A stretch of 64,000 bases of DNA, taken from assembly GCF_000378965.1 (NCBI RefSeq), contig NZ_KB900536.1, positions 2,853,407 through 2,917,406 of the forward strand, given 5' to 3'. The stretch comes from Thioalkalivibrio thiocyanodenitrificans ARhD 1. Lineage in GTDB: Bacteria > Pseudomonadota > Gammaproteobacteria > Ectothiorhodospirales > Ectothiorhodospiraceae. The notes below the pieces were generated by a model. The model had not been told where the DNA came from. It did not search any database and saw only the letters and a program-made list of their open reading frames with translations. A program made the position numbers and the translations under genes. Below, one piece after another: positions 1-26,808 of the stretch. Positions within the stretch are counted from its first letter, which is position 1, and every line of letters starts with the position of its first letter.

Positions 1-1407
1 CGCCGGGGCTCGCGTGCACCGCTGCCGGAACTGTCCGAGCTGGACGTGGTGCGTCATTACACCCGGCTGTCCCAGAAGAACTTCTCCATCGACACGCAGT
101 TCTATCCACTGGGCTCCTGCACCATGAAGTACAACCCGCGGGCCTGCAACAGCCTGGCCATGCTGCCCGGTTTCCTGGATCGGCATCCGCTCGCGCCCGA
201 ATCGTGCAGCCAGGGCTATCTGGCCTGCATGCACGAATTGCAGGAGATGCTGACGGATGTCACGGGCATGAAGGGCGGAGTCTCCCTGACACCCATGGCG
301 GGCGCCCAGGGCGAGTTCGCCGGCGTGGCCATGATTCGCGCCTACCATGATGCCCGCAAGGACACGGCGCGCACCGAGATCCTGGTGCCCGACGCCGCCC
401 ACGGCACCAATCCGGCCACGGCGACCATGTGCGGGTACACGGTGCGCGAGATCCCCACCGACGATTCCGGTGACGTGGACATGGATGCCCTGCAGGCGGC
501 GCTGGGTCCGCATACGGCGGGCATCATGCTCACCAACCCGTCCACGCTGGGCGTGTTCGAGCGGCGCATCAAGGAGATCGCCGATCTGGTGCACCAGGCC
601 GGCGGCCTGCTTTACTACGACGGCGCGAATCTGAACGCCATTCTCGGCAAGGTGCGCCCCGGCGATATGGGTTTCGACGTGATCCACATGAACCTGCACA
701 AGACCTTCTCGACGCCCCACGGCGGCGGCGGTCCGGGTGCCGGTGCCGTGGGAGTGAGCGAACGCCTGCGGCCCTTCATGCCCATCCCGGTGGTGGCCCG
801 GGACGAGGACGGACGCTATCGCTGGCTCACCGAGAAGGACCTGCCCCAGTCCATCGGACGGCTGTCCGCATTTGCGGGCAATGCCGGTGTGCTGCTGCGT
901 GCCTATGTCTACATGCGCATGCTGGGCCGTGCGGGTATGTCCCGGGTGGCGGATTTCTCCACCCTAAACGCCAACTACGTGATGGCCCGCCTCAGGGAGA
1001 GGGGTTTCGAACTGGCCTTCCCGGATCGCCGTGCGACGCACGAGTTCATCGTCACCCTCAAACGGCTTGCCAAAGAGACGGAGGTCACCGCCATGGACGT
1101 GGCCAAGCGCCTGCTGGATTACGACTATCATGCCCCCACCACGTACTTCCCGCTGCTGGTGCCCGAGTGCCTGCTGATCGAACCCACGGAGACCGAGAGC
1201 AAGGAGACCCTGGACGGCTTCGTGGATGCCATGGCGCAGATCCTGGAGGAGGCCCGCACCACGCCCGACAAGGTCAAGGGCGCCCCCTACACGCAGCCGA
1301 ACCGGCGTTTCGACGAGGTGCGTGCCGCCCGTGAGTTGGACGTGGTCTGGCAGCCGCGCTCAGGCACCGGAGACAGCGACCCGCCCGGGCCGGGCATGTC
1401 CGGCTGA
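1..1407 (+). CDS. gcvPB: Glycine dehydrogenase (decarboxylating) subunit 2, 5'-truncated by window edge
   Basis: C-terminal half of the split P-protein of the glycine cleavage system, a PLP enzyme that decarboxylates glycine and passes the aminomethyl group to the lipoyl H-protein. The frame is open from base 1, so the start lies outside the window; little is missing, since the family begins about 40 residues before the [14 protein letters not shown] stretch seen here. The PLP-lysine motif [16 protein letters not shown] is present with its Lys codon at 700-702, as is the early [16 protein letters not shown] block. The stop overlaps the dgkA start (TGATG). A gcvPA partner would be expected just upstream. 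Confident family assignment. Confidence 0.96.
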
Positions 1408-1766
1408 TGGCCTACAGCGGCGACCGTGGCCTGACGCGCATCGTCAGGGCCGTGGGCTACTCCTGGACCGGATTGTGCGCCGCGGTCCGGCACGAGGCGG
1501 CGTTTCGCCAGGAGTTGCTGGTGGTGGTGCCGGCCGTGCCCCTGGCGCTCTGGCTGGGCGAGACGGGTGTCGAGCGCGCCCTGCTGGTGGGCAGTCTGCT
1601 GCTGGTGCTCATCGTGGAACTGCTCAACTCCGCCATCGAGGCCGCCATCGACCGGTTTGGCGGCGAGGTGCATGAACTCTCCGCGCGTGCCAAGGACTTC
1701 GGGTCTGCGGCGGTGCTTCTCTCCCTGATCAACGCCGTGGTGGTGTGGCTGCTGGTGCTCCTGTAG
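1407..1766 (+). CDS. dgkA: Diacylglycerol kinase (prokaryotic, integral membrane)
   Basis: Small inner-membrane kinase that phosphorylates diacylglycerol to phosphatidate, recycling lipid by-products of envelope synthesis. At 119 residues it has the normal family length. It contains an amphipathic N-terminus, three hydrophobic helices (about 36-50, 57-75 and 98-118) and the signature VELLNSAIEAAIDRFG followed by SARAKDFGSAAV, which holds the catalytic and Mg-ATP-binding acidic residues. The ATG overlaps the gcvPB stop by one base, so translation is probably coupled to the glycine cleavage gene even though the functions are unrelated. Confidence 0.95.
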   Translation: MAYSGDRGLTRIVRAVGYSWTGLCAAVRHEAAFRQELLVVVPAVPLALWLGETGVERALLVGSLLLVLIVELLNSAIEAAIDRFGGEVHELSARAKDFGSAAVLLSLINAVVVWLLVLL

Positions 1767-2036
1767 CCCGGATGCTGAAAGCCTTTCAATCCCTTCACCC
1801 GTGATGTCTGCCGGCCATGGCCGTTCAGAAGCTGCATTGATCCGATCCGGCGTGGTCTTCGTGAGCGTCGTGGCTCAAACTCCGTCGCAACCCGGGCTGC
1901 ATCGCCGATTCACCCGGGCCGCGCGTCCGATGCGACTGCTATAGTCTTGTGACACTGACATGCGGTTTCTGTGTGCGCACCCCCGTGCTCCGACCGCGTC
2001 ATCATCGAGGCAACCTTACACTGGAGGAGAAATCAC

Positions 2037-2531
2037 ATGACGATCATTCGTTCGCTGTTGCTTGGCACCGCCATCATGACGGCCGGCGCCGCCCAGGCCG
2101 ATGCCCCGGTCACCCTGGACATCAAGCGCCTGACACTGGAGATGGCGTACCAGATTGCCCACGCCACACTGGAGGCCTGCCGCGCCGAAGGCGTGAACGT
2201 GGCTGTCACCGTGGTGGATCGGGGCGGGCATCCCCAGGTGGTGCTGCGCGATACCCTGGCCATGGACCTGACGCTGGAGATCTCGAAGCAGAAGGCCTAC
2301 ACAGCCATGTCCTTCAACGCCCCGCTGTCGGATATGGAGGACCGGTTCACCAAGCCCTTCCAGGTGGGTAAGGTGCAGGGCATCGTGTTCTCGGCGGGCG
2401 GACTTCCTATCCATGTGGCCGGCTCCATTGTCGGCGGTGTGGGCGTGAGCGGCGCGCCAAGCGGAGAACTGGACGAGCGTTGCGCGGCCGCCGGCATCGA
2501 CTCGGTGCAGTTCGAGCTCGAGATGGGATGA
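2037..2531 (+). CDS. GlcG/HbpS-family (DUF336) periplasmic protein
   Basis: 164-residue protein with a cleavable signal (first ~21 residues, ending AGAAQA) and one GlcG/HbpS domain, seen in AVTVVDRGGHPQVVLRD, SKQKAYTA and GGLPIHVAGSIVGGVGVSG. Members of this family bind heme or small ligands, and several are linked to glycolate or heme use; the ligand here is unknown. The ATG at 2037 was chosen because GGAGGA lies about 7 bases upstream and because it starts exactly at a signal peptide; a longer upstream reading would bury the signal. The stop codon lies inside the GATGAAG heptad repeat that separates this gene from convergent znuA. It stands alone, with 270 bases of spacer before it. Confidence 0.85.
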   Translation: MTIIRSLLLGTAIMTAGAAQADAPVTLDIKRLTLEMAYQIAHATLEACRAEGVNVAVTVVDRGGHPQVVLRDTLAMDLTLEISKQKAYTAMSFNAPLSDMEDRFTKPFQVGKVQGIVFSAGGLPIHVAGSIVGGVGVSGAPSGELDERCAAAGIDSVQFELEMG

Positions 2532-2632
2532 AGGGCGAGGATGAAGGATGAAGGCAGGGCATGCCCCTCCCCGATGCTTTCGCTGAAGCAGGGTTTTATT
2601 CATCCTTCGTCCTTCATCCTTCATCCTTCATC
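2526..2632. repeat. Inverted GATGAAG/CTTCATC heptad repeats between convergent genes
   Basis: Left arm 2526-2554 carries degenerate GATGAAG units. Right arm 2600-2632 carries four CTTCATC-type units in inverted orientation. The arms can pair into a long hairpin. The stops of both flanking genes (TGA at 2529-2531 on +, TGA at 2621-2623 on -) lie within the arms, and the last residues of ZnuA (DEG) are repeat-encoded. A bidirectional terminator role is possible. Confidence 0.75.
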
Positions 2633-3613
2633 AATAAGACAGTCGATCAGGCTGTCGGCCATGTTGCGCAGCAGCTGTTCATAGCCCTCGAGGCCGGAGG
2701 GGAGGTCCGCGCCCAGGGGGTCCAGGATGCCCGCGCGGGCGGGGGTGCCTTCGGTGACCGTGGCCACGATGGCCGGACGGAACTGAGGCTCGCTGAACAC
2801 ACACAGTACATCGGCCTCCGCGAGGCGCTGGCGGATCTCCTGCACTCGCCGGGCCCCCGGCGCCCGGGACGGATCCACGGTGATGGAACCGGCCGGCGTC
2901 AGCCCGAAGTGGCGCTCGAAGTACTGGTAGGCATCGTGGAACACGATGAAGGGACGCCCCTGTACGGGTGCCAGGCGTTGTGCCAGGTCCTGCTCCAGAT
3001 GCCCCAGCCGCCCCAGCAGCTGATCCATGTTGTCCCGATACGCGCCGGCGTTGCCCGGGTCGCGTTCCGCCAGCATCCCCGCCACATGGCGCACGATGCG
3101 GCGTGCGTTCTCCGGAGAGAGCCAGGCATGGGCGTCCGGTGCACCCCGGTCATCGCCATGTGCTGCGGCGTGGTCGTGACCGTGACCGTGATCGTGACCG
3201 TGACCGTGGTCGTGGGTCTCCCAGATGCCGCCGCTGCGTACCGGATAGGTCACCAGATCCGCGTCATGCAGCAATGCGATGCGGTGCGCATCCGGCGGCA
3301 GCCCGGAAAGGGGGCGCACCAGGAAATTCTCCAGTTCGGGGCCTACCCAGATCACCACCTGCGCCTCCTGCAGGCTGCGCATTCCGGAAGGGCGCAGGGC
3401 ATAGTCGTGGGGCGATGCGCCGCCGGGTACCAGAAGTACCGGTTCGGAGATCCCCCGGGTCACCCCCATGACCAGATCGTGTATGGGCTTGATGCTGACG
3501 ACAACGCGCGGCGGTTCCTGGGCCCCGGCGGCGGACATGGCGAGGACAAGGACACACAGGCACAGGACAAGGCGGGAAAGCGGTGTTAGTCTCGGGGCAT
3601 ACCAGCGCGGCAT
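2621..3613 (-). CDS. znuA: Zinc ABC transporter periplasmic zinc-binding protein
   Basis: Cluster A-I solute-binding protein that captures Zn(II) in the periplasm for the ZnuBC permease. It has an N-terminal signal ending near AMSAAGA. An early His in SIKPIHDLVMGV, a His-rich loop (HDHGHGHDHGHGHDH, about residues 134-152), a further His in HAWLSPENARRI and another in FHDAYQYFERHFG supply the expected zinc ligands. The 330-residue length is normal. It is divergent from znuC across a 107-base spacer containing a Zur-type operator, so repression by zinc-loaded Zur is likely. Its 3' end runs into the CTTCATC repeat, which supplies the stop codon. Confidence 0.95.
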   Translation of the reverse strand: MPRWYAPRLTPLSRLVLCLCVLVLAMSAAGAQEPPRVVVSIKPIHDLVMGVTRGISEPVLLVPGGASPHDYALRPSGMRSLQEAQVVIWVGPELENFLVRPLSGLPPDAHRIALLHDADLVTYPVRSGGIWETHDHGHGHDHGHGHDHAAAHGDDRGAPDAHAWLSPENARRIVRHVAGMLAERDPGNAGAYRDNMDQLLGRLGHLEQDLAQRLAPVQGRPFIVFHDAYQYFERHFGLTPAGSITVDPSRAPGARRVQEIRQRLAEADVLCVFSEPQFRPAIVATVTEGTPARAGILDPLGADLPSGLEGYEQLLRNMADSLIDCLIDEG

Positions 3614-17898: not shown

Positions 17899-20800
17899 TC
17901 ACGCCTGCACCGTCGAGAATTGCCGCCTTTCCAGCCAGTTCTCGATCAGGGAATAGACCACCGGCACCACCACCAGGGCCAGCAGGGTGGAGCTGATCAT
18001 GCCGCCGATGACCGCCACCGCGAGCGGGCCCACGGTGTCACTGCCCGCCCCCGCACCGGTAGCCGCCGGCGAAAGGGCGAGGATCAGGGTCAGCGAGGTC
18101 ATCACCACCGGGCGCATTCGGATGGGACACGCCTCGCGCAGGGCCTCGTCCACGCCCTTGCCCTGTTCACGCAACTGGTTGGTGAGGTCCACCAGCAGGA
18201 TGGAGTTCTTGGCCACCAGGCCTACCAGCAGCACCATGCCGATCATGGAATAGATGTTGAGGGTGTTTCCCGTGGCCCACAGGGCGACGAGCCCCCCGAT
18301 GATGGCCAGCGGCTGGGCGACCATGATGATCAGCGGCTGGATGAATGAATTGAACTGACTGGCCAGCACCATGAACACCAGCACCGTTGCCACCACGAAC
18401 ACGAAGGTGATGTAGCCGGCGGTCTTCTCGAACTCCTCCGCCTCGCCCAGCATGCGGACCGTGTAGCCGAGCGGAAGCTCCTCCCCGGCCACGCGTTCCA
18501 CCGTGTCCACCGCATCGGCCAGGGGTATTTCCGGGGTGGCGTAGAAGTTGGCGGCGTACTGGAGGTTGAAACGGCTGATCACCGCGGGCCCCAGCGCCTC
18601 GTCGAAACGGGCCACCGTGTCCAGGCGCACCATGTCGTTGGTCTCGTTGCGCAGGAAGATGCGGCGCATGTCCAGCGGTTGTTCAAGGCGCCCCTCGGCG
18701 GCCTTGAGGCGCACGTCGTAGCGTTCGCCGTCGCCGGGCTCGTCGTTGTACTTGGCCACGTCAACCCCGCCGGCCAGGACGTTGGCGGCCATGGCCACGT
18801 CCCGGGTGGACAGCCCCAGGCTCGCGGTGCGCTCACGGTCCACGTTGAGCACCAGCTGGGGCAGATCGAGCTGCAGGTCCAGGTCCATGCGCCCCACCTC
18901 CGGGTGCTCCTCGGTCAGTCGGTCACGGATGCGCCGGGCGTGCTCGGCCACCTGGTTGATGTCGGGGCCGCGCACCACGAACTGCAGGGGCTCGCCCCGC
19001 TGTCCACCGATGAAGGGGACCGGACCGGCAAAACCGCGTACACCGGGGATCCGGGCGATCTTCTCGTTCATGCGTGCGACCACCTCCTGCTGGCGTTCGT
19101 CACGCTCGCCGGTGGGTTTCATGCGCACGAACGCCAGGGCCTGATTCACCTGGCCGCGATCCCCCAGTCCGATGGCGGAGAAGTAGGTGCGTACGGTGGG
19201 TTCCGCGGCCAGGATCTCCTCCACCATGCGCAACCGGCTGTCGGTGTACTCGATCCCCGATCCCAGCGGGGTGCGCAGCAACACCATGAAGCGGCTCTCG
19301 TCCTCCTCGGGCACGAAGGTCTTGCCGATGTTGGCGAAGAACCACCCGCTGGAGAGCACGATCAGTGCCGCCATCAGCAGGGTGATCAGGCGATGGCCCA
19401 GGGCCGCGTCGAGCAGCCGGCGATAGGTCTTGTCCATCACCTGGAAGCCGCGCTCGAACAGGTTGTAGAGCTGGCCGTGTGACGGACTGACCCGCAGGAA
19501 TCGGGAGCACAGCATGGGGGTCAGGGTCACCGCGACGAAGTAGGAGATCAGCACGCCCACCGCCACCACCACGGCAAACGATTCGAAGAAGCGGCCGATG
19601 ATGCCGCCCATGAACACCACGGGCGCGAAGATGGCGACCAGGGAAAGCGTGGTGGCGAGGATGGCGAACACCACCTGGTTGGTGCCCAGCAGGGCGCCCT
19701 GGATCGGATCGGGCTCGATGGTCTCCCGATGGCGGTAGATGTTCTCCAGCACCACGATGGCATCGTCCACCACTACGCCGATGAGCAGCAGCAGCGCCAG
19801 CAGGGTCATGGAGTTGAATGTGTAGCCGAAGAAGTACATGGCCGCCACGGCGCCCAGCAGCGACACCGGAATGGCAGTGGCGATGATGATCGTGGCCCGG
19901 AAGTTCTTCAGGAAGATGAGCACCACCAGCGCCGCCAGCAGGGTGCCGAGCACGATCTTGTCCAGCAGGGCGTAGATCATGTCCAGGATGAACACCGAGT
20001 GGTCCGAGGCGATGGAAAGATGCATGCCCGGCGGGAGCTGAGGCTCGATCTCCTCGGCCAGTCGCTTCTTCACCTCGTTGACGATGGCGATGGTGTTGCT
20101 GCCCGGCACCTTGACGATGCCGAGCCCCACGGTGGGTTCGCTGTTGAAGCGGGCAAGGCGCCGGAAGTCCTCGAGATCGTCCTCCACGGTGGCCACGTCC
20201 CGCAGCCGGATGGTGGTGCCGCCACGGTGTTCGATCACCAGGCGTTCCAGGTCACGGGGATTGTGATACTCGAGATCCAGCTTGATGAGCCGCTCGGTGC
20301 GTTCACCCACCAGGAAGCCGCCGGGAAGCTGGAAGTGTTCGCGCTCGAAGGCCTCCATGATGTCCTGCACCGTGAGGTCCAGGGACGAGAGCTGCTCCGG
20401 GTACAGATTCACCCGGATGGTGCGGTCGCGCCGTCCGCCCAGGCGCACCTCGCCCACGCCGTCGATGGTTTCCAGGGACTTGCGTACCACGTTGCGGGCG
20501 TACTGGTTGAGCTGCTGCTGGGTGCGGTCACCCTGCAGCGCGATCCACATGATGGGGGAGGCGTCGGTCTCCACCTTGGCCACCACCGGGGGGTCGGCGT
20601 CGGCCGGTAGCTGGCGCAGCACCTGGTTCACCTTGGCCTGGACCTCGTTGAAGGCCACATCGATGTCCTTGTTGAGGTTGAAGGTGATGGCCACCACCGA
20701 CACGCCGGGCGAGGAGGACGACTGCACCGAGTCGATACCCGGCACGCTGTTGACCGAAGACTCGATGATGCTGGTCATGGACGCGTCCACCACGTCCGGG

Positions 20801-20964
20801 TTGGCGCCGGTGAGCACGGTCGTCACCGACACCACCGGGAAATCGATGGACGGGAAACGGTCCACGCCGAGCCGGTCCATGGAGATGAGACCGAAGAGCA
20901 CCAGCACGGCGCTCATCATGTACGCCAGGACGTGGCGGCTGATCGATAGTTCAGGCAGCGTCAT
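17899..20964 (-). CDS. RND multidrug efflux permease (HAE1-like)
   Basis: 1021-residue inner-membrane proton/drug antiporter. It has the N-terminal LPELSISRHVLAYMMSAVLVLFG helix, the VVVDDAIVVLENIYRHRET block with the paired TM4 aspartates of the proton relay, and VGLVAKNSILLVDLTNQLREQG in the C-terminal helices. It is the last gene of a tetR-adaptor-permease operon: the adaptor ends where this gene starts, sharing one base at 20964. No outer-membrane factor is encoded nearby. Substrates cannot be deduced. Confidence 0.95.
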   Translation of the reverse strand: MTLPELSISRHVLAYMMSAVLVLFGLISMDRLGVDRFPSIDFPVVSVTTVLTGANPDVVDASMTSIIESSVNSVPGIDSVQSSSSPGVSVVAITFNLNKDIDVAFNEVQAKVNQVLRQLPADADPPVVAKVETDASPIMWIALQGDRTQQQLNQYARNVVRKSLETIDGVGEVRLGGRRDRTIRVNLYPEQLSSLDLTVQDIMEAFEREHFQLPGGFLVGERTERLIKLDLEYHNPRDLERLVIEHRGGTTIRLRDVATVEDDLEDFRRLARFNSEPTVGLGIVKVPGSNTIAIVNEVKKRLAEEIEPQLPPGMHLSIASDHSVFILDMIYALLDKIVLGTLLAALVVLIFLKNFRATIIIATAIPVSLLGAVAAMYFFGYTFNSMTLLALLLLIGVVVDDAIVVLENIYRHRETIEPDPIQGALLGTNQVVFAILATTLSLVAIFAPVVFMGGIIGRFFESFAVVVAVGVLISYFVAVTLTPMLCSRFLRVSPSHGQLYNLFERGFQVMDKTYRRLLDAALGHRLITLLMAALIVLSSGWFFANIGKTFVPEEDESRFMVLLRTPLGSGIEYTDSRLRMVEEILAAEPTVRTYFSAIGLGDRGQVNQALAFVRMKPTGERDERQQEVVARMNEKIARIPGVRGFAGPVPFIGGQRGEPLQFVVRGPDINQVAEHARRIRDRLTEEHPEVGRMDLDLQLDLPQLVLNVDRERTASLGLSTRDVAMAANVLAGGVDVAKYNDEPGDGERYDVRLKAAEGRLEQPLDMRRIFLRNETNDMVRLDTVARFDEALGPAVISRFNLQYAANFYATPEIPLADAVDTVERVAGEELPLGYTVRMLGEAEEFEKTAGYITFVFVVATVLVFMVLASQFNSFIQPLIIMVAQPLAIIGGLVALWATGNTLNIYSMIGMVLLVGLVAKNSILLVDLTNQLREQGKGVDEALREACPIRMRPVVMTSLTLILALSPAATGAGAGSDTVGPLAVAVIGGMISSTLLALVVVPVVYSLIENWLERRQFSTVQA

Positions 20965-22046
20965 CAGTCGGGCTCCGGCACGTTCACGGGCGCTCCGTCG
21001 GTGAGAAATCCGGCGCCGTCAACCGCCACCCGTTCACCGGCTTCAAGCCCGTCAAGCACCTCGATCATGCCGTTGGTGCGCACCCCGGTGCGCACCACGC
21101 GCTGGCGGGCGGTATCGTTCTCGATCACGTACACCACGCTGCCCGCGGGCCGCAGCACGATGCTCATGTCCGGCACCAGCAGGGCCTCTTCGCGGGTCTC
21201 CAGCACCACCCGTCCGTTGACACTGGCGCCGGGACGCCAGCCGCCCGGGTTGTCAAACTCGGCGATGATCATCACGGAGCGTGTGCTGCTGCCCAGCATG
21301 GGGCGGATTTCCGTGATGGTGCCGTCCACCTGCTGGTCGCGGGCCACCGGTGAGATCAGTTCCACGGTCAGTCCGGTGCGCAGCCGGTCGGCAACGTATT
21401 CCGGGAAGGGCAACTGGGCGCGCAGCAGCCGGTCGGTGGAAATCCGGAACAGGGGGGTGCCCTGGCCCGCCCAGCCGCCCACGTCCGCCTCGCGGCTTTC
21501 CACCCGGCCGTCCACCGGGGCCTTCACGCGGGTGCGCTCGATATTGCGCTCCGCCTGCGCCAGCTCGGCGCGGGTGGAAGCCAGTTGGCCCTCCAGGGCG
21601 CGCAGTTCGGCGAGAGCGTTGTCCAGGTCGCTCTCGGAGACCATGTTGCGTTCCAGCAACTGGCGGTTGCGCGTCACCTGGCGCTGCTGGTTCTCGATCA
21701 GCGCCTCGAGCCGTGAGATCTCCGCACGGGCCCGTTGCGCCGCAAGGCGGAAGTCACCGTCGTCCAGCCGTGCCAGGAGCTCGCCGGCTGCCACCGCGTC
21801 GCCCTCGTCCACCATGATCTCCACGATGCGCGCGGCCACCTCCGCGGCAACGGTGGGTGCCGCGGTGGTACGTACGGTGCCGAGCGTCTCCTCGGTGATG
21901 CGTACCGTGTCGATGGTCACCGCTTCGGCGGTGATGGTGGTGCCGCGCGGCCGTTCCTGCTCCGCACCGTTGTCCGGTTCCGGGCCACAGGCAACCAGGC
22001 CAATCAGCAGCAGGGGGGCGATCAACAGGGGGCTGAGGGATTTCAT
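20964..22046 (-). CDS. RND efflux periplasmic adaptor lipoprotein
   Basis: 360-residue membrane fusion protein. The lipoprotein signal ends LLLIGLVACGPEPDNG, so it is probably lipid-anchored. It then shows the barrel-sandwich strands (TVAAEVAARIVEIMVDEGDAVAAGELLARLD), a long coiled-coil hairpin (about 95-170, rich in Arg/Glu/Leu heptads), the returning VKAPVDGRVESREADVGG, and the beta-barrel and proximal domains. ATG 22046 was chosen over a longer reading because it begins the signal peptide. It pairs with the permease it overlaps and lies 34 bases after a TetR-type regulator gene. Confidence 0.93.
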   Translation of the reverse strand: MKSLSPLLIAPLLLIGLVACGPEPDNGAEQERPRGTTITAEAVTIDTVRITEETLGTVRTTAAPTVAAEVAARIVEIMVDEGDAVAAGELLARLDDGDFRLAAQRARAEISRLEALIENQQRQVTRNRQLLERNMVSESDLDNALAELRALEGQLASTRAELAQAERNIERTRVKAPVDGRVESREADVGGWAGQGTPLFRISTDRLLRAQLPFPEYVADRLRTGLTVELISPVARDQQVDGTITEIRPMLGSSTRSVMIIAEFDNPGGWRPGASVNGRVVLETREEALLVPDMSIVLRPAGSVVYVIENDTARQRVVRTGVRTNGMIEVLDGLEAGERVAVDGAGFLTDGAPVNVPEPD

Positions 22047-22080
22047 GGAGAGATCCTTGTGGTGCTTGACGGGTACGGTT

Positions 22081-22722
22081 CTATGTGGCGGCCCGCCCCG
22101 CGCCACGGAGCAGCACCTGCATGTACATCCGGCTGTAACGTTTCGGGTCATCGGCAAAGTCCACGCCGGGCAGGTGGCGCAGCACATCCTGGGATTGCGC
22201 GAAGAACACGTTGGCCGCGAGCATCATGACCGCGATGAAGGCCGGCGGCAGGTCGCGGTCAAGTTCACCGCGCCGCTGGCCCAGGCGGACGGTTTCCACC
22301 AGGCGATCGAAGCCGTCGTGGAAGACGTCCCGGGCCAGCTCCTCGGCCCGCCCCGGCGCGTTTTCCAGCACCTCGCGCAGAATCAGGCGGGTATCCCGCG
22401 CGTTGTCCAGCATGGACGCCAGGTGCTTCACGGCGAAATCGGCGAGTTGCTCGCCGATGGAGCCATCCTCCAGGTTCAGCGCCTCCAGCTCGTCCCGGGA
22501 CTCCCGGCAGGCCTCTCGCAGGGCCGCGATGTAGAGCTCATGCTTGCTGCGAAAGTGGTGGAAAATGTTGGCCTTGCTGACGCCCGCGGCGTTCGCCACG
22601 GCGTTCATGGAGACCGCATCGAATCCCTGGCTGGAGAACAGGTCCAGGGCGGCCCGAAGTATGCGTGATACCGCCTGGCCGGGAGGTGTCTCGGGGGCGT
22701 TGGTCTCGGTGCTCTCAGGCAT
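22081..22722 (-). CDS. TetR/AcrR family transcriptional regulator of the efflux operon
   Basis: 213-residue repressor with an N-terminal helix-turn-helix (about residues 20-64: ILRAALDLFSSQGFDAVSMN...AGVSKANIFHHFRSKHELY) and an all-helical ligand-binding C-terminal domain. It is first in the operon with the adaptor and permease genes downstream, the classic layout for autoregulated RND pumps. A perfect 16-base palindrome 41 bases upstream is its likely operator. Since that palindrome also faces the divergent redox operon at 23002, joint control is possible. The inducer is unknown. Confidence 0.93.
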   Translation of the reverse strand: MPESTETNAPETPPGQAVSRILRAALDLFSSQGFDAVSMNAVANAAGVSKANIFHHFRSKHELYIAALREACRESRDELEALNLEDGSIGEQLADFAVKHLASMLDNARDTRLILREVLENAPGRAEELARDVFHDGFDRLVETVRLGQRRGELDRDLPPAFIAVMMLAANVFFAQSQDVLRHLPGVDFADDPKRYSRMYMQVLLRGAGRAAT

Positions 22723-23001: not shown

Positions 23002-23811
23002 ATGCCCGCAAATGCAGGCAGGCAGCACCGTTTACCCGCCGCACGCCCGGATCTGTCCAGTCACGCCCTGATCGGACTCCTGGCAGGTCTGTGTCTTCTC
23101 CTGGTCGGCTATCTGCTGATTCGGCCACTCCTGCCCGAGGCCTGGCAGCGGCCCGGCTCACCGGTGTTGCAGTCTGCGGCGATACTGGGTTCCATCCTGC
23201 TGCTGTCACCGTTTGCCCTCTGGCTGGGCAAGCGCACCGGGCTGAGCGCGGTCCCGAATCGTTTGTATGTGCTGCATGTGGTGGCGAGCACGGCGGGCAT
23301 GTTTCTGGTGGGGATGCACGCTGCGGCCAGCCTGCGGGGGCCGCCGCTGTTCATGGTGGTCTGCCTCGCGCTGCTGGTGGTGACGGGGATGGTCGGGCGG
23401 GTGTATCTGTCAGGGCCCATGGCCGCAACCTTCGGGAGCAAGTCCGCCCCGTTCCGGCCGGTCCCGCCCGAGCTGAAGAATGCGCTGCGCCAGATCATCC
23501 GGGAAAAGGATGCCCTGCTCGGGAAACTGGATCCGCAGGCATCCGAAGCCCTGTTCTCGGTAACGCTGCGCCACTGGGTCCGCGCCCCCCGGCTCTCCCT
23601 GGCCTATCAGCGCCTGGTGTGGCGGGAGGCTGCCCTGACCGGCCAGCGGGCCTCGGTCCCGCCCCTGCAGGCCTATTGGCGGCCTGCTCATATCGTGCTC
23701 GCCTGGCTGTTTCTCGCCGCGCTGGTTGCCCACGTGGTGCTGGTGACATTTCTGCCCGGTTACGTGGCCGGGGAGGGCGAGATCTACTGGTGGCATCTGG
23801 GCGGCAGGTGA
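23002..23811 (+). CDS. Transmembrane protein with two H-x13-H helices, putative bis-heme cytochrome b subunit
   Basis: 269-residue membrane protein with about five hydrophobic helices (near residues 23-44, 58-76, 88-107, 114-136 and 228-250) and a ~80-residue basic hydrophilic loop before the last. Helices 3 and 5 each carry two histidines exactly 14 apart (H92/H106 and H230/H244). The same H-x13-H spacing binds two b-hemes between helices in cytochrome b of the bc1 complex. No sequence family was recognised; the heme inference rests on spacing and on the neighbour, a ferredoxin-molybdoenzyme fusion 21 bases downstream that needs a quinone-linked anchor. ATG 23002 was chosen because AAGGA lies upstream; longer in-frame readings exist. 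Confidence 0.6.
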   Translation: MPANAGRQHRLPAARPDLSSHALIGLLAGLCLLLVGYLLIRPLLPEAWQRPGSPVLQSAAILGSILLLSPFALWLGKRTGLSAVPNRLYVLHVVASTAGMFLVGMHAAASLRGPPLFMVVCLALLVVTGMVGRVYLSGPMAATFGSKSAPFRPVPPELKNALRQIIREKDALLGKLDPQASEALFSVTLRHWVRAPRLSLAYQRLVWREAALTGQRASVPPLQAYWRPAHIVLAWLFLAALVAHVVLVTFLPGYVAGEGEIYWWHLGGR

Positions 23812-23832
23812 TGCCACGGGAGTGAAGCGGTC

Positions 23833-26808
23833 ATGCAACTGGCATTGATGATTGACCTGGAGCGCTGCATCGGCTGCAAGAGCTGTGAGGCCGCCTGCAA
23901 GGCGGAGCACGGTCTCGGTCCGGGCGAGAACCGCAACCGGGTCATCTGGCTCGGCGGCGAGACCGAGCCGGCCCTCGATTTCCTGACGCTCTCCTGCCAG
24001 CACTGCGAGCGCCCTGCCTGCCTGCGTGCCTGCCCGGTCAACCCCAAGGCCATCAGCAAGCATCCGGACACGGGGGTGGTGAGCGTGGACGAGTCCCGCT
24101 GCACCGGATGCGGCGAGTGTGTCGTGGCCTGCCCGTATGGCGCCATGGGCTACGATCCGATCGATCACCACGCCGTCAAGTGCGATCTGTGCAGCGAACG
24201 AAGGGGGGCGGGTCTGCGACCCGCCTGTGCAACCGTCTGTCCGGCCGAGGCAATCTCCTTCGGCGATCGCGCGGATCATCTGAAGACCGTGGCCGAGGCC
24301 GGGCGTCGCACGGTGGATCACGACGCCTTCCTGCTCGGCCCCGCCAACATCTTTCTGGAGCGGCTCGATCGACCGGCGGCCGGCGCAGCGCAAGCGGCAG
24401 TCGCACCGAAGGCGGATGGCTTCTCCGTCGAGGGCCGTCGCCGCCCTGCGGTTGTGGATGATCCGAAGCAGAGGGCGAAGCTTCAACCGAAGTCCATCGC
24501 GTTTCCGTTTCGCGCAGGCCGCGAGGATCGCCAACCCGACGCGGTGGTGGCCGGGGGCTGCAACATCTGCTTCAACTGCTGTCCCACCGAGTATCACCTG
24601 AAAGACGGCCGCGTCGTGCGCGTCACCGGCAACGAGGCGGATCCGCTGTGGCGCGGCAAGGTCTGCCCGAAATCGCAGTTCCTGCTCCAGCTCTACAACA
24701 GTAACGATCGACTGACGCAGCCGCTGAAGCGGGTCGGTGCGCGGGGCGAGGGCCGATTCGAGCCCATCGGATGGGACCAGGCGCTGGACGAGATCGCCGC
24801 CCGACTGAACGCCATCCGGGCAGAGCACGGACCGGAGGCCCTGGGCATCTTCGCGGGTACGCGCACCGGTACGCTGACGCGCAAGGGCTATATCCGGCTG
24901 TTCACCCAGCTGTGGGGCACGCCCAACTTCGCGGATACCGAGGCCTTCTGTTCGGAGTCGAAGAACGTGGCCTTCGAGGCGACCCTGGGCATTGCCGGCA
25001 GCGGCAACAGCTACACGCCCGGCGATCTGGGCAGCGCCGCGCTCTACGTCTACTTCGGCGACAACCAGGCGGAGTCGCGCCCGGTGCACTTCGGCATGAT
25101 CAACGACTGGCGGCTCAAGAACGGGGCGCGGATGGTGGTGGTCGATCCCCGGTTGACGGTCACTGCCAGCAAGGCGGACCTGTGGCTGGCGATCCGCCCG
25201 GGTACCGATATGGCTCTGGCGCTGGCGCTCTCGTATCACATCCTCGAAGCCGGGCTCCACGATGCGGACTTTTGCGAACACTGGGTGCTTGGCTGGCGCG
25301 AGTGGCGCGAACATCTGTTCGCCAGGGGGTATTCCCCGGAGTGGGCAGCGCCCGTTACCGGCATCGATGCGCAGGCCATCCGCGATCTGGCGGAGGAGAT
25401 CGCTTCGGCGGACGGCTGCGTGATGTTCGGGGCCCGCGGCATCAATCAGCACAGCAACGGCACCCAGACCAACCGCACCCTGCTCTTCCTGGCGGCGATC
25501 ACCGGCAATATGGGCCGCAGGGGCGGAACGTATTTCAATTTCGGCACGCCGTCGCCCGTACTCGCAGATGCGCCCCGGCATCGCAGGGCCGGGGGGCAGC
25601 GTCCCATGCTGGCCACCAATCCGACCGGCTGGTTGGATGCCATGGTCAACAGCGACCCCTACCCGATGCGGGCGGTGATCACGGCCAACAACCCGCTCAC
25701 GGCATGGCCGAACCAGGCTCGGGTGCGCGAGGCATTCAGGGCGCTCGATCTGCTTGTGCACATCGAGCTGTTCAGGAACGAGACCAGCGCGTATGCGGAT
25801 TACATCCTGCCCGCGGCGACGGGCGTGGAGAAGGGCGAGATCGGGCGGGCCAGCGAGGACCGGCGCGTGATCTGGATCGACAAGGTGGTCGATCCGCCCG
25901 GTGAGGCGCGGCCGGACGGATGGATCTGGATCGAGCTGGGCAAGCGTTTCGGTTTCGATGATGTGCTGCGCGACGAGTACAAGGATGCGGCGCGCTTCTG
26001 GGACGAGATGTGCATCGATCATGTGTGGATGCGCGGGTGCACGCAAAAGCGGCTGCACTCGGTGCCGTGGCGTTGGGTGCGCACGCCGCTGGTGGACGAG
26101 GATGCCCCGGAAATCGAGACCCTGCACCTGGAAGGCACGACGGCGACAGGGCATCCGGAAGGGCACCGCTTCCCGACGCCGAGCGGCAGTCTCGAGTTCT
26201 GGACCCAGTCCCTGGATGCCCGCTTCAGGGCGCTGGGCTTGTCGGCACTGCCCGAGTTCTACAGCGACGCCGAGCAATTGATCGATCTGCCCTACGTGCG
26301 ACCGCAGGCCGGCGATGCAGTCCCCGTCCGCAATTCCTTCGCCAAGGGCGAGGTGTACACGCGGCCCGTGGAGATCACCCAGCCGAACGATGATGCGCCG
26401 GCCAGGACACTGGCGTCGCGGGGCTTTGACACCGAATTGATCACCGGGCGCCCGCCCGCGCCGCATTTCCATTCCTGGACCCATTACGCATGGCAGGCAC
26501 AGGAGATGTGGCCGGATCTCTACGTCCAGATCCATCCCGCCAGGGCGCAACGCCTGGGCATCGCGGACGGGGAGGAGGTGAGCGTGGAAACCGCTCACGG
26601 TCGGATCGACGCGCGGGCGTGGGTGTACCCGGGTATCCGGGAAGACGCGGTCTACGTGCCCATCGGCTGGGATGCCAGCCAGCCCTTCCACCCCTGGCAG
26701 TCGGTGAACTTCCTGACGGACGAGCGACAGCGGGACCCCCTGTCGGATCATTCGAACCTAAAGAGCTTCCTGTGCCGGATCGTGCCTAAACGAGCCGACC
26801 GGGTGTGA
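23833..26808 (+). CDS. Fused four-cluster ferredoxin / molybdopterin oxidoreductase
   Basis: 991-residue protein combining two subunits usually encoded separately. Residues 1-145 are an iron-sulfur protein of the DmsB/PsrB/SoeB type with sixteen cysteines in four groups (C12/15/18/22, C55/58/63/67, C90/93/96/100, C117/120/132/136). After a ~95-residue linker, residues 240-991 are a Mo-bis-PGD catalytic subunit with its own [4Fe-4S] site (C243, C246, C250, C278) and a likely Mo ligand at C373 (FCSESKN). There is no Tat signal, so it should act in the cytoplasm, with the upstream putative cytochrome b carrying electrons to or from quinone. The substrate is unknown; sulfite (SoeA-like), polysulfide or thiosulfate are possibilities, not demonstrated. 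Confidence 0.88.
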   Translation: MQLALMIDLERCIGCKSCEAACKAEHGLGPGENRNRVIWLGGETEPALDFLTLSCQHCERPACLRACPVNPKAISKHPDTGVVSVDESRCTGCGECVVACPYGAMGYDPIDHHAVKCDLCSERRGAGLRPACATVCPAEAISFGDRADHLKTVAEAGRRTVDHDAFLLGPANIFLERLDRPAAGAAQAAVAPKADGFSVEGRRRPAVVDDPKQRAKLQPKSIAFPFRAGREDRQPDAVVAGGCNICFNCCPTEYHLKDGRVVRVTGNEADPLWRGKVCPKSQFLLQLYNSNDRLTQPLKRVGARGEGRFEPIGWDQALDEIAARLNAIRAEHGPEALGIFAGTRTGTLTRKGYIRLFTQLWGTPNFADTEAFCSESKNVAFEATLGIAGSGNSYTPGDLGSAALYVYFGDNQAESRPVHFGMINDWRLKNGARMVVVDPRLTVTASKADLWLAIRPGTDMALALALSYHILEAGLHDADFCEHWVLGWREWREHLFARGYSPEWAAPVTGIDAQAIRDLAEEIASADGCVMFGARGINQHSNGTQTNRTLLFLAAITGNMGRRGGTYFNFGTPSPVLADAPRHRRAGGQRPMLATNPTGWLDAMVNSDPYPMRAVITANNPLTAWPNQARVREAFRALDLLVHIELFRNETSAYADYILPAATGVEKGEIGRASEDRRVIWIDKVVDPPGEARPDGWIWIELGKRFGFDDVLRDEYKDAARFWDEMCIDHVWMRGCTQKRLHSVPWRWVRTPLVDEDAPEIETLHLEGTTATGHPEGHRFPTPSGSLEFWTQSLDARFRALGLSALPEFYSDAEQLIDLPYVRPQAGDAVPVRNSFAKGEVYTRPVEITQPNDDAPARTLASRGFDTELITGRPPAPHFHSWTHYAWQAQEMWPDLYVQIHPARAQRLGIADGEEVSVETAHGRIDARAWVYPGIREDAVYVPIGWDASQPFHPWQSVNFLTDERQRDPLSDHSNLKSFLCRIVPKRADRV

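Follow-up and report, generated by a model that had tools for sequence, protein, structure and literature searches.

Taurine, isethionate, sulfolactate and other sulfonates are plentiful among the organic sulfur compounds of the sea, and organisms that degrade them all have to get rid of toxic sulfite. For this step, SoeABC, SorAB-type enzymes and Apr-Sat are the routes commonly named. In SoeABC, a molybdenum-bis(pyranopterin guanine dinucleotide) (Mo-bis-PGD) subunit without a twin-arginine translocation (Tat) signal, a four-cluster ferredoxin and a membrane anchor, all specified by separate genes, constitute a cytoplasm-facing complex. A gene pair of the same general build, here designated M and F, is located in a stretch of 64,000 nt from Thioalkalivibrio thiocyanodenitrificans ARhD 1 (contig NZ_KB900536.1), referred to as the window in the following. 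The reaction proposed for this pair is the same, but the A and B parts are fused in F, with the ferredoxin placed first. From the sequence data, and with moderate confidence, M-F is interpreted as a two-gene, membrane-bound, cytoplasmic sulfite dehydrogenase acting beside organosulfonate breakdown. It is probably an apparently undescribed Soe-like variant of the complex iron-sulfur molybdoenzymes and not a member of SoeABC. Searches of the open-access PMC literature showed no account of the module, and for a sulfite dehydrogenase in Halomonas they yielded one Ruegeria genome note.

In a study of a taurine-degrading sponge symbiont, periplasmic and cytoplasmic sulfite dehydrogenases as well as the Apr route are mentioned (PMC10356861), soeABC has been predicted from genomes of SAR116 (PMC12262181), and SorAB, Soe and Apr genes are reported from Nitrospinota (PMC10839748). 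Among the charge-translocating membrane subunits of such complexes, diheme b-like and NrfD-like proteins are described as the two kinds met most often, and the NrfD-like ones, SoeC among them, as devoid of redox cofactors (PMC8076601). While SoeC is an NrfD-like anchor, M is a predicted diheme cytochrome b with four invariant histidines, and in the module such an anchor and a fused electron-transfer subunit are combined with what looks like a Soe-type reaction. PhsABC also comprises a molybdenum subunit, a four-cluster ferredoxin and a separate membrane anchor annotated as cytochrome b, but PhsA has a Tat start, PhsA and PhsB are encoded separately, and PhsA belongs to a different branch. If M-F is a sulfite dehydrogenase, then sulfite oxidation has also arisen on another molybdoenzyme branch, where it is combined with another type of membrane anchor.

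Gene M and its predicted haem ligands

A first-pass annotation, made from the letters of the window, had drawn attention to a membrane protein with two H-x13-H helices (H92/H106 and H230/H244), taken as haem ligands, and to a fused ferredoxin-molybdoenzyme as its partner. Both open reading frames (ORFs) are present where it had placed them (Table 1), and the histidine numbering is correct when counted from the ATG at 23002. In cytochrome b of the bc1 and b6 complexes the haem ligands reside on helices B and D, with H-x13-H in both, and M likewise has this arrangement on two helices. The spacing alone is weak and only mildly unusual evidence, because at least two H-x13-H pairs were obtained in 280 of 20,000 random shuffles of M. 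It is conservation, not spacing, that carries weight here. All four histidines are invariant in 28 out of 28 aligned M proteins, of which one is that of the window and the others are 35-60% identical to it, and they are kept as well in L054, L055 and L064, three rows outside this alignment (L numbers denote loci, G numbers genomes). Left out of the alignment were the 5'-truncated M genes of L041 and L043, then L009 and L010, whose contigs equal in length those of L037 and L033, respectively, and also L054, L055 and L064. Further invariant residues are R133, R227, Y254, I261, W263 and W264. Based on this pattern, M is predicted to bind haem b.

The AlphaFold (AF2) model of M, with a mean predicted local distance difference test (pLDDT) score of 84.4, contains soluble helices between the last two transmembrane helices. 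Since basic residues prevail over acidic ones in this loop (Table 1), the positive-inside rule places it in the cytoplasm, which would put H92/H230 near the cytoplasmic and H106/H244 near the periplasmic side. The two haem b groups would be held between helices 3 and 5, the second and the fourth in the bundle of four seen in the model, by one ligand pair at each of two membrane depths, and the loop is likely the cytoplasmic dock for F.

A Foldseek search with the model of M yielded no match at E<=0.001. With VIA-align, Z scores of 8.0 for cytochrome b6f, 7.7 for b561 and 7.4 for SpNOX were obtained, yet talin reached 7.9; because unrelated helix bundles score as high as haem-b proteins, these values were not used as evidence. 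The Pfam and NCBIfam searches placed M in no known non-heme family, so that neither this nor a lack of histidine conservation, the two refuting outcomes named in the first-pass annotation, was encountered. DUF4405 (PF14358) was matched at E<=1 by 19 of the 28 (best E 4.1e-5), and for window M the score was 18.9 bits, which is under the curated cut-off of 26.7. Among the Pfam matches listed for the 28 proteins at E<=1, there was no NrfD/DmsC family. FdnI and NarI are diheme b subunits of membrane complexes. DsrM is another one (PMC8076601). Apart from weak Ni_hydr_CYTB matches in three of the 28, no M protein matches the Pfam families of these three subunits. The remaining Pfam matches of M relatives, other than DUF4405 and Ni_hydr_CYTB, were taken as noise.

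More distant M-like proteins are encoded at L046-L050, L053 and L056. In hhalign, this wider set aligned to M with 98.7% and E 2.9e-16, the histidine pairs being aligned, and the first pair is invariant in all seven. Whereas M is accompanied by a molybdoenzyme, a multihaem cytochrome c gene is the neighbour at the two loci of this set that were inspected, L047 and L056, and at L047 an FAD/2Fe-2S reductase gene is found in addition (all recognized by eye). As these neighbours differ, the M-like proteins may serve more generally as electron conduits whose soluble partners vary.

Table 1. Features of the M-F module; positions refer to the window
Feature	Position	Residues	Strand	Description
Gene M	23002..23811		+	269-aa membrane protein, predicted bis-His diheme cytochrome b, five transmembrane helices
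M transmembrane helices		20-43, 54-79 (break at 68), 85-108, 114-145, 221-250		AlphaFold model
M H92	23275..23277	92	+	Predicted haem ligand, helix 3, inferred cytoplasmic side; invariant 28/28
M H106	23317..23319	106	+	Predicted haem ligand, helix 3, inferred periplasmic side; invariant 28/28
M loop	23437..23661	146-220	+	Soluble, between helices 4 and 5; 13 K/R vs 6 D/E
M H230	23689..23691	230	+	Predicted haem ligand, helix 5, inferred cytoplasmic side; invariant 28/28
M H244	23731..23733	244	+	Predicted haem ligand, helix 5, inferred periplasmic side; invariant 28/28
Gene F	23833..26808		+	991-aa fused ferredoxin and Mo-bis-PGD oxidoreductase; 21 nt after M
F four-cluster ferredoxin domain	23833..24270	1-146	+	DmsB/PsrB/NrfC type; PF13247 6.7e-23
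F Mo-bis-PGD catalytic domain	24544..26805	238-991	+	With own Fe-S cluster site; PF04879 4.5e-7, PF00384 5.5e-49, PF01568 4.8e-22
F C373	24949..24951	373	+	Mo-ligand position; invariant 28/28

Gene F and the branch of its catalytic part

The partner protein was described in the first-pass annotation as a four-cluster ferredoxin fused to a Mo-bis-PGD subunit without a Tat signal, and this description holds. The ferredoxin part contains four sets of cysteines (C12/15/18/22, C55/58/63/67, C90/93/96/100 and C117/120/132/136) and the catalytic part one Fe-S cluster set (C243/246/250/278). None of the 21 cofactor-binding cysteines, i.e. the 16 of the ferredoxin, C243, C246, C250, C278 and C373, varies among the 28 aligned F proteins, and in each of these proteins the ferredoxin and catalytic parts form one chain. 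The incomplete F genes of L009, L010, L022, L039 and L054 were not included in this alignment. Reading the sequence directly, no twin-arginine start was seen on F. The ferredoxin domain matched NCBIfam TIGR02951 with an E value of 4.3e-33, under the cut-off of this family. In the AlphaFold model of F the mean pLDDT is 56.6, with values below 50 for the ferredoxin part (1-146). With a predicted Mo-bis-PGD subunit that has its own Fe-S site, a four-cluster ferredoxin and a membrane anchor, the pair shows the build of the complex iron-sulfur molybdoenzymes.

C373 occupies the molybdenum-ligand position, where PhsA, SoeA and NapA have an aligned cysteine and FdnG an in-frame TGA codon. One in-frame TGA is also present in a formate dehydrogenase alpha gene elsewhere in the window genome (L060, G000:C1:1076137-1077780). 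Because the TGA of Ensifer FdnG is aligned with the molybdenum ligand, selenocysteine is likely in this formate dehydrogenase.

A tree was calculated from 36 catalytic subunits, among them 13 F rows; F_L020, which is cut by a contig end, and L030, which had escaped the motif search, were left out. The 13 F rows form one clade with support of 100/100. Its sister (100/98) consists of Tat-bearing single-gene molybdenum proteins encoded on Nostoc and Streptomyces plasmids (L065, L066). These are the nearest relatives of the catalytic part among the tree rows, but they differ from F by their twin-arginine start (by eye), and no ferredoxin or M-like gene is annotated alongside. The SoeA rows join the PhsA and Psr-like rows (97/98), and the Fdh, Nap, Nas and AioA rows make up another group (99/100); several of the reference branches are long and were flagged by the program. 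The four SoeA references were recognized by similarity, three of them also by A-B-C gene order, and not by assay. When F and SoeA were constrained to group together, the log likelihood was 44.45 lower and the arrangement was rejected by the approximately unbiased (AU) test (p-AU 0.0059). Since both the tree and this test separate F from SoeA, F is not regarded as belonging to SoeABC. Of the comparisons envisaged in the first-pass annotation, those to SoeA, PhsA, Psr-like and Fdh rows thus set F apart; rows for ArrA and for Thermus PsrA were not part of the tree.

Spread of the module and its co-occurrence with sulfonate genes

A genome scan with a three-row M alignment resulted in 29 named loci from Alphaproteobacteria, Gammaproteobacteria and Nitrospinota, including Rhodospirillales, SAR116, Halomonas, Modicisalibacter and the Olavius algarvensis Gamma 3 symbiont. 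L021 was counted as alphaproteobacterial and L035 as Nitrospinota-type by sequence likeness, while L011, L013 and L051 (unrelated-looking) and L012 (no ORF obtained) were dropped. In 28 of these 29 loci an F gene comes immediately after M, and the two-gene make-up noticed in the window is therefore maintained across all three groups, many marine bacteria included. The exception is L034 (7986-9305), where a DNA-methyltransferase-like ORF (by eye) lies right after M and a TauD-family gene before it. The pair is also present in the congener G748 and on a Pseudohalocynthiibacter plasmid (M 39% identical, E 4e-49); in the congener G747, the contig stops some 220 nt past M, and any F gene would lie beyond its end. 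On the plasmid, the one annotated record, M is designated 'hypothetical protein' and F 'molybdopterin-dependent oxidoreductase', and with such generic annotation the module is easily missed.

The module is rare. Full-length M was detected in three of 369 class genomes, in three of 58 relatives and in one of 398 phylum genomes, the latter being the window genome itself. In this evenly drawn phylum sample, nine genomes match M at E<=0.001, eight of them partially, with E 3.1e-8 as the best value of these. Weak or partial matches (G023, G059, G117, G017, G022, G101, G170) were not counted as module; those of G022, G101 and G170 range from 8.1e-11 to 2.9e-12, and none of these three is among the 21 Xsc-positive class genomes.

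Xsc, sulfoacetaldehyde acetyltransferase, was scored as TIGR03457 over its cut-off. Within the 58 relatives, full-length M (three) and Xsc (three) occur in the same three genomes, which are three of the five genomes of the genus (Fisher p 3.2e-5), and among the 369 class genomes Xsc is found in 3/3 module carriers (M at E<=1e-100) versus 18/366 others (Fisher p = 1.6e-4), counts that are not corrected for kinship, the class sample amounting to two lineages and the relatives to one genus. In total, 34 genomes were searched and Xsc was detected in 16, all of them among the 32 module carriers, not all of which are complete (L019, for example, is from a single-cell genome). The two module-free congeners are without Xsc. 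Among the carriers, Xsc is present in 12 of 13 gammaproteobacterial, four of ten alphaproteobacterial and none of nine Nitrospinota-type genomes.

In Halomonas elongata 153B and H. almeriensis, xsc is located on the contig of the module, about 10 and 16 kb off, respectively, and in H. almeriensis it adjoins a TauE-family gene. For both, no match to SoeC (E<=1e-10), PF03404 (E<=0.001) or AprA (E<=1e-100) was obtained; if M-F oxidizes sulfite, it would fill the sulfite-oxidation gap in Halomonas. The other 14 of the 16 Xsc-positive carriers have at least one of these three sulfite-oxidation markers, G784 with only AprA pieces below the cut-off. SoeC is present in three of the four other congeners, the fourth, G747, being 82% complete, and AprA shows the same pattern. 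Because SoeC is found in congeners with and without the module, it does not follow Xsc within the genus in the way the module does. Judging from five genomes, SoeABC and Apr seem to serve the lithotrophy of the genus, and the module appears to follow the sulfonate pathway. Beside the canonical soeABC genes of the window genome (L057), a transposase-like ORF is seen by eye at 1595-2803 (-), and aprA is about 10 kb away.

The immediate neighbourhood was also inspected. A TauE-family gene begins 3 nt after the F stop codon in L030 and L031 (PF01925 in L031; the L030 gene is 75% identical to it). A gene of the sulfate-exporter family PF03601 is located 4.6-5.1 kb from M in L032, L042 and L064, and on the Pseudohalocynthiibacter plasmid it is annotated as putative sulfate exporter. 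TauD-family dioxygenase genes directly precede M in L016, L017, L018 and L034 (PF02668 for L018, by similarity for the others), and this family has members with other substrates, too. TRAP transporter genes are near M in L032, L042 and L036. Overall, neighbours of the TauE, PF03601 or TauD type occur at nine of 32 screened loci and not at the other 23.

Besides the kinship behind the counts, a number of observations weigh against a sulfite dehydrogenase acting beside sulfonate breakdown. No F was found in the DNA around M in L034. Xsc over cut-off is missing in all nine Nitrospinota-type and in six of the ten alphaproteobacterial carriers, and SsuD, as another source of sulfite, is over its cut-off in none of the 34 genomes, with 12 weaker matches. 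Conversely, 18 of the 21 Xsc-positive class members lack the module. The window genome harbors SoeABC, a PF03404 protein and AprA as well, and the module is therefore not its only candidate route for sulfite; its xsc gene, which is found with an IclR regulator and a TctA/TctC transporter, is 1.8 Mb from the module. Functional hints are provided neither by the RecA-like gene (by eye) near the module in six of ten gammaproteobacterial loci nor by the GreA-like gene directly before M in six of nine Nitrospinota-type loci, and the flanks in the window (RND pump, membrane-fusion, TetR, acyltransferase and HD-GYP-like genes, by eye) look unrelated.

Probable substrate and electron acceptor

The observation that started this analysis is confirmed and its interpretation, a quinone-linked oxidoreductase facing the cytoplasm, is partly supported. 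The substrate, left open in the first-pass annotation, is now likely to be sulfite released from sulfonates such as taurine, as indicated by the genome context, which favours it over thiosulfate or polysulfide. Xsc, and possibly other desulfonating enzymes, would supply the sulfite, which would be converted to sulfate at the Mo-bis-PGD site of F. The two electrons would pass from the cluster of the catalytic subunit through the four fused ferredoxin clusters, five Fe-S clusters in all, and enter M at its cytoplasmic haem. From there we infer quinone as the most likely acceptor. If this is correct, the module could be an added route from sulfonate sulfur to sulfate in Alphaproteobacteria and Gammaproteobacteria and perhaps in Nitrospinota.

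Other assignments are conceivable for both ends of this electron path. Most molybdoenzymes of this build are quinone-linked, which argues against electrons leaving by the distal M haem for a c-type cytochrome in the periplasm, as would be expected of a transmembrane sulfite:cytochrome c oxidoreductase. Such an exit appears unlikely also from the search for CxxCH in ORFs of at least 80 aa at 31 loci, where, apart from F itself, the motif was carried by a single neighbour, which looks unrelated (L016, L018). In its favour, M belongs to the wider M-like set, of which the members at L047 and L056 have multihaem cytochrome c neighbours, and the end of M, probably periplasmic, holds the invariant residues Y254, I261, W263 and W264. 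That electrons from cytoplasmic sulfite are conducted from the fused ferredoxin-molybdoenzyme via a bc1-like H-x13-H diheme b directly through the membrane to cytochrome c or another periplasmic acceptor, which would equip sulfonate-degrading marine bacteria with a third, quinone-independent class of sulfite oxidase, is considered rather improbable. A similarly low probability is given to F acting on another sulfonate or C1-C2 intermediate, or on a compound without sulfur, with an indirect link to Xsc. The 16 of 32 carriers without Xsc over cut-off would fit such an activity, as would copies near CoA-transferase-like, dehydrogenase or hydantoinase genes, but neighbours of the sulfite, sulfate or sulfonate type recur in several alphaproteobacterial groups and in Halomonas.

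Similarity searches point to yet other substrates. The best match of F to a solved structure is 2vpw_A (E 2.3e-67), deposited as thiosulfate reductase and described as Thermus PsrABC (PMC8076601), and PhsA is the second-best NCBIfam profile (E 3.1e-87, 293 bits versus a cut-off of 694). Oxidation or reduction of thiosulfate, polysulfide or tetrathionate is nevertheless judged very unlikely, as the PhsA and Psr-like references have twin-arginine starts (by eye) and are on another branch of the tree, whereas F has no export signal and the genome context favours sulfonates. The best NCBIfam profile is Fdh-alpha (E 1.1e-93), but its 314.6 bits are below the cut-off of 666.25, and F is outside the Fdh group in the tree. 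Moreover, formate dehydrogenases have selenocysteine or cysteine followed by a catalytic histidine, and the residue after C373 is S, A or D in the four F rows that were aligned with the references, as opposed to histidine in FdnG. A cytoplasmic formate dehydrogenase is thus hardly to be expected. Only slightly less remote is an oxidation of arsenite or thioarsenate. It is suggested by the Streptomyces member of the sister clade, the Tat-bearing plasmid protein without ferredoxin (L066), whose gene sits among arsenic-resistance genes, and by a second, Soe-like SoeABC proposed for arsenite in Thioalkalivibrio (PMC6620896); among module neighbours named by Pfam, annotation or eye, however, no arsenic gene was recognized, a dedicated search not having been made. 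Sulfite from sulfonates is accordingly retained as the preferred substrate of M-F.

Two further observations concern regions outside the module. Upstream of M, the window contains RND pump, membrane-fusion and TetR-type genes at 17899-22722 (-) (by eye), which are absent at this place in the congener G748; there, the flanks of the module are the same as in the window on both sides, with the pump genes gone. At L058, a Tat-bearing Psr-like molybdoenzyme is encoded together with a ferredoxin, an NrfD-like anchor and chaperone-like genes, adjoining a sensor kinase and a periplasmic binding protein, and by eye this set resembles that of tetrathionate reductase.

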